Source: a bacterium
GTDB lineage: Bacteria > Sysuimicrobiota > Sysuimicrobiia > Sysuimicrobiales > Segetimicrobiaceae
Length of the DNA stretch: 55,966 nt
Reading direction: 5' to 3'
Assembly (NCBI GenBank): GCA_035691305.1
Contig: DASSJF010000009.1
Location: forward strand, 1-55,966
Under the pieces are notes generated by a model that worked only from the letters and a program-made list of their open reading frames with translations, was not told the origin of the DNA and made no database searches. Made by a program: the position numbers and the translations under genes. Of the stretch, positions 13,840 through 16,022 are shown one piece after another. How positions within the stretch are numbered: the stretch's first letter is position 1; each line of letters begins with the position of its first letter.

Positions 13840-14043
13840 ATGCCTAAGGGTACCGTGAAGTGGTTTAATCGTGAGAAGGGTTATGGATTTATTACCCCGG
13901 AGGAAGGCAAGGACGTGTTTGTGCACTACACCGGTATCGCCGGTGAGGGCTTCCGGAATCTCGAAGAGGGGCAGGTCGTCGAATTCGAGATCACACAGGG
14001 CCAGAAAGGCCCGCAGGCCCAGAATGTGAGAGTGGTGGGCTAG
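13840..14043 (+). CDS. cspA: cold-shock domain protein
   Basis: A 67-residue OB-fold protein with RNP1 KGYGFITPE and RNP2 DVFVHYTGI, the standard single-domain CspA family that binds single-stranded RNA/DNA. The Tyr in VHYT replaces the usual Phe of VHFS. The leader contains GGGGGAGGA (13819-13827), 12 nt from the ATG, which is long, and a complete two-codon ORF, ATG AAG TAG, between the two. The gene is noticeably poorer in GC than its neighbours, as highly expressed csp genes often are, and ends at a perfect hairpin. Confidence 0.97.
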
Positions 14044-14081: not shown

Positions 14082-14118
14082 GAGAGCGCCGGGCCGTCGG
14101 CCCGGCGCTCTCGCTTCG
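14082..14118 (+). terminator. strong hairpin after the cold-shock gene
   Basis: A perfect 14-bp GC-rich stem (14082-14095 with 14099-14112, loop GTC) starts 38 bp past the csp stop. The following GCTTCGTGG is not a T-run, so it may act as a Rho-assisted or hairpin-only terminator. The outer GAGAGCG/CGCTCTC stem matches the hairpin at 2129-2159. Confidence 0.65.
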
Positions 14119-14351
14119 TGGCCCCAAGACCGGATCGAAGGCTGCGGGGGCGTCGCCACGATTCGATCACCTTTGTGGCAAGGGCCGCCTTCCGTGGCGG
14201 AGTTTTAGATGAGCTATTGCTCATTTTGGTGCATTTAACCGCCAATTTTCTCAATCACGGACCCAGAAAGATGGTTTCTTGATGCAACTCTTGGCAAGAA
14301 TGTTGCGTGCGGCCTGAGGTGCGTGATAGATTAAAATGAGGGGCTGCCAAG
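14113..14351. promoter_or_regulatory. AT-rich leader of the basic-protein/Doc pair with palindrome
   Basis: The 239-bp stretch becomes AT-rich from 14190. It contains the palindrome ATGAGC-TATT-GCTCAT (14209-14224) and promoter-like words: TTGCGT, 18 nt, TAGATT, with TAAAAT close to the ATG of the basic protein. The palindrome is a candidate autoregulatory operator of a toxin-antitoxin unit. The composition change relative to both flanks suggests a recently acquired element. Confidence 0.4.
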
Positions 14352-14663
14352 ATGGCAAAGAGGACCAGAAGGTCCGGAAAACAGGGCAAGGCGCACCGGT
14401 CGGCCGAGAAACGCGCCCGAACGAGGGTTTCTGCCGTCCGGAAAGGCGCCCGCAAGTCGATACGGCGTGCCAAGCCGGCCCGTGGACGCGTGAGAGTGGT
14501 GCGGCCCGGAGCCACCCGGGCACGCGCGAGGAAGATCGCCACACGCAGTCCAAAACGGCCGCTGCCGCCCGCCGAGATGCTGAGCGAACGTTTGTTCCTC
14601 TCCAGCCTTGAGCGCAGCCTCCGCGACAATCGGCTGGTTTGGGAGGCGCTCGCCAAACGATGA
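14352..14663 (+). CDS. basic histone-tail-like protein, putative antitoxin or accessory of the Doc gene
   Basis: A 103-residue protein. Residues 1-72 are extremely rich in Arg/Lys/Ala/Ser with KRTRR, RSAEKRARTR and RARKIATRSPKRP segments, like histone H1 or ribosomal-protein tails. The last 30 residues (PPAEMLSERLFLSSLERSLRDNRLVWEALAKR region) look like an ordinary folded helix pair. Its stop overlaps the start of the Doc-type gene by 4 nt (ATGA), the organisation of antitoxin-toxin operons. It is not a Phd protein and shows no obvious (S/T)xxxE(G/N) Fic-inhibition motif. A DNA- or RNA-binding antitoxin is my inference; no family is recognised. Confidence 0.6.
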   Translation: MAKRTRRSGKQGKAHRSAEKRARTRVSAVRKGARKSIRRAKPARGRVRVVRPGATRARARKIATRSPKRPLPPAEMLSERLFLSSLERSLRDNRLVWEALAKR

Positions 14664-15073
14664 AGTACTTGTCCACCGAGCAACTCAGGACGGTCAACCA
14701 GCGGATGATCCGTGCCACCGGGGGGCTCTATCTCGCCGGAGAGCAGAACGTTGTCTATCCACCGAGTCTCGACTCGCTCGTCAATTTTGTGCAACAGCGC
14801 ATGTCCCTCCGTCCCCAGCCGACGGTTTGGGACCTTGCGGCGTTCTATCTCGACCGGCTGATTCGCGACCAGGTGTTCCACGACGGCAACAAACGCACCG
14901 CGCTCGAGGCGACGCGTCTTTTCCTCGAGAGCGCCGGCTACAGACTAGCCCTCAGTCCGGCGTCGGAGGCCGTCGAGTTCGTGACGGGTGTCGCCAAGGG
15001 CGGCATGACCCGCGACGGCATCGCCGTTTGGCTCAAGAGTCACTCCAAGCGCAAGAGCAACGGCAAGAAGTAG
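14660..15073 (+). CDS. doc: Doc/Fic-fold toxin-like protein with altered motif histidine
   Basis: A 137-residue death-on-curing family protein: N-terminal YLSTEQLRTVNQRMIRATGG, then the Fic core. The motif reads QVFHDGNKRTAL (Q71 to L82) where the family normally has HxFxDGNKR. The catalytic His position is Gln, with a His three residues later at position 74. The GNKRTAL nucleotide/anion loop is intact. Doc kinases phosphorylate EF-Tu through the His, so this copy may be inactive, or may use the displaced His74. ATG 14660 overlaps the stop of the basic protein. The C-terminus is Lys/Ser-rich (SHSKRKSNGKK). Confidence 0.8.
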   Translation: MKYLSTEQLRTVNQRMIRATGGLYLAGEQNVVYPPSLDSLVNFVQQRMSLRPQPTVWDLAAFYLDRLIRDQVFHDGNKRTALEATRLFLESAGYRLALSPASEAVEFVTGVAKGGMTRDGIAVWLKSHSKRKSNGKK

Positions 15074-15130: not shown

Positions 15131-15685
15131 TCATCGCACAAGCTGTTCGGCGATCGTATACATGCCGAGCAGTATGAACGCCGCGGCGGCCGCCGTCTCC
15201 GCCGCCCGCGCCGTGCGGCGGCCCGCCCGAATCCCGAGCCGCCGGCCGGCCCATATGCCCGCGACGGTGACGACGAACGCCTGCAGCCCGATGGCCGCGA
15301 GCACCGTCGGGACCGGCAGCCGCGCCGCCCCCATGGGGAATCCCGCGGCGAGTTCGTCCATCGAGATCCCGAACCCCGCGAGTACCGTGCCGCGCAGGGT
15401 TCCGAGCGAGGCGTGCGCCGGCCCCTCCTCGGCGCCGCGGGCCTCCCGAAAGATGTTCGTGCCGATTCCGATGAGGATGGCGCCGCCCGCGTAAACCGCC
15501 GCGGCGGCAAAGCGGCGGCCGGCGTAGTCCCCGGCCGCGATGCCGATCAGCGGCATCACCGTTTCGAACAGCGCGAACAACACCGCGGGGCGCAGGGGAC
15601 GGATGCGCCGCAGGCCCAGCGCTACGGCGGCGGCAAAGGTGTCGATGCCGAGGGGAAGCACGAACGCGGCGATTTTGAACGCCAT
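15131..15685 (-). CDS. mntP: MntP-family manganese efflux pump
   Basis: A 184-residue protein with six hydrophobic spans in two inverted three-helix halves. It has the paired acidic motifs of MntP: GIDTFAAAVALG in helix 1 and GISMDELAAGFPMG in helix 4, whose Asp/Glu residues line the Mn2+ path. Length fits the family (about 185-195). ATG 15685 is chosen because the N-terminus (MAFKIAAFVLPLG) then matches the family; the open frame continues upstream without homology. I looked for a yybP-ykoY Mn2+ riboswitch in the minus-strand leader and did not find a convincing one. Confidence 0.9.
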   Translation of the reverse strand: MAFKIAAFVLPLGIDTFAAAVALGLRRIRPLRPAVLFALFETVMPLIGIAAGDYAGRRFAAAAVYAGGAILIGIGTNIFREARGAEEGPAHASLGTLRGTVLAGFGISMDELAAGFPMGAARLPVPTVLAAIGLQAFVVTVAGIWAGRRLGIRAGRRTARAAETAAAAAFILLGMYTIAEQLVR

Positions 15686-15799
15686 GGCTGCGGAGAGATC
15701 GGTTCCACGGCCGTACCGCGGCGGCCCTCCCGCCGCTCCCTTGACACCGCGAAACGCGCGCGCGATGATAGGGCCAGTGAATGAGAGGAGGTGATGCGG

Positions 15800-15877
15800 A
15801 TGGCCCATAGTAGACCCGGCTCCATGCCGTACCGTCCGACCTGCCGCCAGTATCCGCGCGAGGTGAAGGCCGGGTAA
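15800..15877 (+). CDS. 25-residue small ORF with near-perfect ribosome binding site
   Basis: GAGAGGAGGTG (15783-15793) precedes ATG 15794 by no gap and in-frame ATG 15800 at an ideal 8-nt spacing from AGGAGG. The product from 15800 starts MAHSRPGSMPYRPTCRQY and ends VKAG before TAA 15877. It is polar, with two prolines in an RPGS/YRPT pattern, one Cys and no membrane segment. It lies opposite the upstream frame of mntP and is followed 145 bp later by a terminator, consistent with its own short transcript. It could be a small protein or a leader peptide; the ribosome binding site is the main evidence. Confidence 0.45.
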   Translation: MAHSRPGSMPYRPTCRQYPREVKAG

Positions 15878-16022
15878 TACGTCCGCACTTCCGGCCGCCA
15901 TCAGCGCAGCGGCACAGCTGGATGATGACGGTTCGGCAGGAGACTCCGCATACGGTGCGCTCCGAGCTCGCAGGTCCCGGAGCCGCCGCGCACGGCAGAA
16001 CGTGAATCGAGAGGTACGTGTT
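15878..16022. other. 145-bp non-coding stretch
   Basis: Lies between the small ORF and the 16023 hairpin. It is GC-rich with short potential stems, but no recognised riboswitch core, tRNA or promoter. If the plus-strand transcript is real, this would be its 3' untranslated region. Confidence 0.3.

Follow-up and report, generated by a model that had tools for sequence, protein, structure and literature searches.

A family-wide Doc-type gene with glutamine at the motif histidine and an Arg/Lys-rich, antitoxin-like partner in Segetimicrobiaceae

What does a Doc-type gene do in a bacterial chromosome when the catalytic histidine of its motif is replaced, and when the gene ahead of it encodes a strongly basic protein? 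The question is raised by two genes of an uncultured soil bacterium from the Segetimicrobiaceae (contig DASSJF010000009.1; the window, i.e., the whole stretch of DNA analysed, has 55,966 nucleotides). Gene 1 (14352-14663, forward strand) encodes an antitoxin-like protein of 103 residues, with a basic N-terminal part and a putative Doc-binding C-terminal tail. Gene 2 (14660-15073, forward strand) encodes a Doc-fold protein of 137 residues. The two share an ATGA, the start codon of gene 2 lying over the TGA of gene 1. A first-pass annotation, made from the letters of the window, had given the same reading frames, the same 103-residue partner and the same overlap, and our gene coordinates agree with it.

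The Doc-type identity of gene 2, also proposed in that annotation, was confirmed by profile searches and by the predicted fold. Gene 2 passed the cut-offs of the Pfam Fic family (PF02661, E 1.6e-9, 38.9 bits, cut-off 24) and of the NCBIfam family TIGR01550 DOC_P1 (E 8e-14, 51.9 bits, cut-off 38.65), and matched the PHROG “Doc-like toxin” with an E-value of 2.8e-23. The best PDB matches of its predicted structure, a model of modest quality (pLDDT 70.6, seven close sequences), were the P1 Doc complexes 3dd7, 3k33 and 3kh2, with E about 1e-4. Weak PADLOC matches of gene 2 to candidate defence families (E 0.0003-0.01) were discounted as evidence for defence.

The motif of gene 2 reads QVFHDGNKR (residues 71-79; 14870..14896, forward strand). 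Alignment to P1 Doc places Gln71 at the catalytic His66 and His74, three residues on, at Asn69. The protein thus lacks the catalytic His of HxFx(D/N)(A/G)NKR and has the remainder of the motif. Asp75 occupies the metal-ligand position and Asn77-Lys78-Arg79 the phosphate-binding positions; these residues and Gly76 were invariant among the 12 orthologues described below. All 12 genomes carried Q[VI]FHDGNKR, with Val at position 72 in all except one, which had Ile, and both Gln71 and His74 were present throughout, as the first-pass annotation had read them in the window. Since 12 genomes carry the Gln, we rejected a sequencing error as its cause.

The distribution of the pair was investigated in 43 genomes of the phylum, all from the same order, of which 12 belong to the Segetimicrobiaceae. 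Each of the 12, spread over four genera and including two that are only 64% and 68% complete, had one orthologue of gene 2 (74-89% identity), always at the same chromosomal spot. The same search gave no orthologue in the other 31 genomes; a few of these had more distant Docs, with His in the motif (H-type) where the motif was read. Every family genome had a single Doc with Gln in the motif (Q-type) and a single tail-bearing partner, linked and with an equal overlap. The conservation of the pair, on which the first-pass annotation had let its reading depend, was thereby found in 12 of 12 genomes, and always with Gln. Within the genus, dN/dS of the Doc was 0.06-0.08, which is a rough value because synonymous sites are near saturation; on these estimates the Doc is under strong purifying selection within the genus. 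Scanning viral contigs with the family alignment gave no orthologue. The matching named records were soil metagenome assemblies, for example “Terrabacteria group bacterium ANGP1”, assigned by NCBI to Candidatus Segetimicrobiaceae in the phylum Candidatus Sysuimicrobiota.

Gene 1 falls into two parts. The N-terminal part, residues 1-70 (14352..14561, forward strand), has 41% Lys/Arg and 1% Asp/Glu. Among the 12 orthologues this part has 51-71 residues, 33-41% Lys/Arg and 0-2% Asp/Glu, so that its composition is conserved while its sequence and length vary. The last ~33 residues (71-103; 14562..14660, forward strand) are distinct from the basic part and near-invariant in the family, following ERxFxxSLERSLRDxRxxWEALAKR, with a pN/pS of 0.28. 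The first-pass annotation had described a 72-residue Arg/Lys-rich tail; the basic stretch instead forms the N-terminal ~70 residues, and the C-terminal ~33 are of another kind. The composition of gene 1 suits a histone-like or H1-like basic protein; however, no family of Pfam, NCBIfam, PADLOC or PHROG scored above threshold. A Phd or AbrB DNA-binding domain was not matched by Pfam or NCBIfam, and the Arg/Lys-rich stretch stands in its place. This stretch may itself bind nucleic acid.

For the C-terminal part, we built a profile HMM from the last 32 residues of 55 genes located upstream of H-type Docs. As background served the C-termini of 2,735 open frames (frames, not called genes) with a length of 70 aa or more, taken from the window and 20 other stretches of the same genome. 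The gene 1 tail ranked first of all, with 12.2 bits against 7.7 for the next best, and 1,000 shuffles of the tail reached at most 8.7 bits. All 12 orthologues scored, at 12.2-17.2 bits. Held-out true tails had a median of 22.0 bits, with 48 of 55 above 7.7, and the moderate score of gene 1 lies in their lower third. Because the score tops the background and is below the held-out median, gene 1 looks like a genuine, yet diverged, bearer of a putative Doc-antitoxin tail. The statement that it is “not a Phd antitoxin”, made in the first-pass annotation, holds for the N-terminal domain and is limited to it, since the C-terminal tail is, by its sequence, that of a Doc antitoxin.

The spacing of hydrophobic residues in the tail points in the same direction. 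Leu86, Leu90, Trp97 and Leu100 of gene 1 match Phe56, Met60, Leu67 and Leu70 of Salmonella Phd in an alignment made by eye, counting from the C-terminus. Spacing was compared for four of the six hot spots, out of 12 known Phd-like features, and the four include both gatekeepers of Salmonella Phd, Phe56 and Leu70 (PMC9207808). The pair thus resembles Phd-Doc (phage P1; chromosomal in Salmonella and Enterococcus faecalis) in the Doc fold, in an antitoxin gene that comes first, in overlapping or abutting genes, and in a C-terminal antitoxin tail whose hydrophobic residues are spaced alike. It differs in having Gln and an Arg/Lys-rich stretch, where Phd-Doc has His and a Phd/AbrB domain, and, unlike its Phd-Doc relatives, in being a fixed single copy within one bacterial family. 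The tail and the gene order are also shared with the AbrB-antitoxin Doc modules, to which many of the sampled H-type Docs belong (antitoxin type assigned by eye and from PLSDB names); these have an AbrB-type DNA-binding domain, in contrast to the basic stretch of gene 1.

The motif Gln was also found in other Fic/Doc proteins. Doc-type genes sampled outside the family gave 67 motif matches, 66 with His and one with Asn; some of these loci overlap, and Q-types are under-sampled in the set because classical Doc profiles were used to retrieve it. When 386 genomes and viral contigs were searched for the motif pattern, Q-type Fic/Doc proteins proved widespread, mostly as larger Fic proteins and also as short Docs. 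In each of the 24 IMG/VR viral contigs that match the Q-motif pattern (L123-L146) there was an open frame for a Q-type Fic or Doc-like protein; predicted phage-associated Fic/Doc genes thus commonly have Gln in place of the motif His. Short Q-Docs of viral contigs were likewise preceded by small proteins ending in a tail of this type, and six of seven such tails scored above the best background C-terminus. None of the four viral partners compared with Pfam (from L124, L135, L136 and L143) had a recognised DNA-binding domain, so a tail without a Phd/AbrB domain is not unique to the Segetimicrobiaceae; the long Arg/Lys-rich arm was observed in this family only. Larger Q-type Fic proteins occur in the Segetimicrobiaceae as well (L115, genome G029, contig C30, 17652-17677; a 570-aa open frame with QPFEDVNKR) and recur in the sampled genomes (L100, L101, L104 and L107). 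One Doc homologue, L042 of genome G254, has Asn for the motif His (NAFNDGNKR).

In a tree of 83 Docs, the family formed one starred clade with a long stem and no resolved sister. L042 grouped with P1 Doc (support 98/79, not starred). Constraining all Q-types, with the Q-Docs of viral contigs among them, to a single clade was not rejected (p 0.268). In their account of clade D2, to which they assigned 45 Docs sharing the motif Qx[FY]x[DE][GV]NKR, Khater and Mohanty (2015) suggested that such proteins may not be dead (PMC4454073). Gene 2 fits this motif exactly and, like the D2 proteins, is a single-domain bacterial Doc; it may also be linked to them by descent. Their D2 section gives no description of partner genes. 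Given clade D2 and the many Q-type genes of viral contigs, the “new class of Fic-type module” suggested in the first-pass annotation is too strong a term. The literature searched yielded no functional test of Q-type Docs.

The leader of the pair is AT-rich, as had been noted before: 14200-14349 has 45% GC, compared with 54-73% in the other nearby 150-base windows. A promoter-like element on the forward strand (14303..14332) consists of TTGCGT, 18 bases and TAGATT, with a TG ahead of the second hexamer. It scores under the strict consensus threshold of the promoter scan, and TTGCG/TTGCA plus TAGATT, spaced by 17-18 bases, are kept in 12 of 12 family genomes. The likely ribosome-binding site of gene 1, GAGGGG (14338..14343, forward strand), has its GAGG kept in all 12 as well. 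The palindrome that the first-pass annotation had pointed out, ATGAGCTATTGCTCAT (14209-14224, no strand given; ATGAGC and GCTCAT around TATT), is indeed present and is a tentative candidate operator. It is exact in the window, where 0.13 occurrences would be expected even with up to one mismatch allowed. Its core, TGAGCN4GCTCA, occurs five times in the genome, and the control, the pattern reversed, matches six times per strand; on this number we rejected the palindrome as a genome-wide operator. A comparable inverted repeat was recognisable in two of the four genera only (g1 and g2). Upstream of the pair lies a cold-shock protein gene (13840-14043, forward strand), which adjoins the pair across the family: its distance 5' of the Doc start is 716-910 bases in each of the 11 loci long enough to include it. 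The cold-shock gene is followed by a GC-rich inverted repeat (14082-14112). The downstream gene is convergent (15131-15901, reverse strand) and matches the MntP manganese efflux family (PF02659, E 3.9e-29).

The sequence comparisons establish a predicted Doc fold, an altered motif, a putative antitoxin tail, linkage and constraint. Together they make it probable that the two genes are a type II toxin-antitoxin-like pair of the Phd-Doc kind, chromosomally fixed (“domesticated”) in the Segetimicrobiaceae. The part of this reading in which we place most confidence is the pairing itself, with docking of the gene 1 tail on the Doc, which we regard as very likely. Like residues 52-73 of Phd, the tail would form a helix lying in the groove of the Doc, and once docked would restrain the Doc. 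The Arg/Lys-rich part, in place of the Phd/AbrB domain, would tether the complex to nucleic acid, which may be promoter DNA, the nucleoid or the ribosome. The Doc would retain ATP/Mg binding, with its pocket in use. What speaks against this reading is that the pair, vertically fixed and slow to evolve, does not behave like a selfish toxin-antitoxin module.

Whether the Q-Doc retains residual or altered catalysis appears evenly balanced. Phosphotransfer could persist in a slow or altered form, Gln71 assisting in the placement of the target hydroxyl; alternatively, the protein could be a non-catalytic, ligand-binding partner. Catalysis with Gln is disfavoured because changing the His to Ala kills the Fic toxins tested: H184A and H147A abolished the Fic activity of Campylobacter fetus Fic2 and Fic3 (PMC5651007), and H192A that of CccR (PMC9755527). 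The vertical fixation, which suggests a tamed role, counts against it as well. Surviving chemistry is favoured because the other motif residues are invariant and other Q-Docs keep antitoxin tails. The same two observations argue against the strongest competing explanation, in which catalysis has been lost and the Q-Doc is kept as a structural partner that folds and controls the basic protein; the complex would then be a regulator that binds nucleic acid and acts, for instance, on its own promoter. Unless ATP binding matters, a pocket without activity would be free to lose Asp75, Gly76, Asn77, Lys78 and Arg79, and the tails next to the viral-contig Q-Docs suggest that neutralisation is still needed. 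The replacement of His in 12 of 12 genomes, the vertical, single-copy fixation, the basic N-terminal part of gene 1 and the candidate operator at 14209-14224 all fit such a regulator, although across the genome the palindrome is no more frequent than expected by chance, and it is not conserved in every genus. We consider this explanation less probable than a fixed Phd-Doc-like pair, and still one to be taken seriously. Somewhat more speculatively, the module may have become a lasting housekeeping complex of this family, in which a His-less, ATP-binding Doc is joined by an antitoxin whose basic arm is histone-like. Such a complex would serve as a regulator associated with the nucleoid or the ribosome, and not as a toxin.

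The first-pass annotation had also suggested a displaced His. In this explanation His74 would substitute as catalytic base for the lost His in the Segetimicrobiaceae lineage, and its occurrence in 12 of 12 family genomes agrees with that. A His at this position was found in none of 60 H-type and none of 11 Q/N-type Docs from elsewhere, and its absence from these 71 ties His74 to the lineage. However, as other Q-Docs have no His there, a Gln in the motif does not require His74, and we regard the displaced base as improbable. That gene 1 is an unrelated neighbour or a spurious ORF beside a lone Doc gene, as its lack of a family match and the varying sequence and length of its N-terminal part might suggest, can be dismissed in view of the identical overlap and tail in 12 of 12 genomes, the constraint on the tail and its match to Doc antitoxins.

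What is new here, in our reading, is a Phd-Doc variant that joins a Q-type Doc to an Arg/Lys-rich antitoxin with a Doc-antitoxin tail and is fixed within a single bacterial family; a search of the literature for Doc antitoxins of a basic or disordered kind and for His-less Fic/Doc proteins found no description of this pair. The variant suggests that a Doc antitoxin may dispense with a recognised DNA-binding domain, and makes the pair a candidate case of a domesticated toxin-antitoxin module. With a single-copy pair, strong purifying selection and a recognisable tail, the lineage offers a clean test case for Q-type Docs. One of the 12 family genomes, G033, holds in addition an ordinary H-type Doc with an AbrB-type partner, and this extra copy provides a contrast between patchy and fixed modules.
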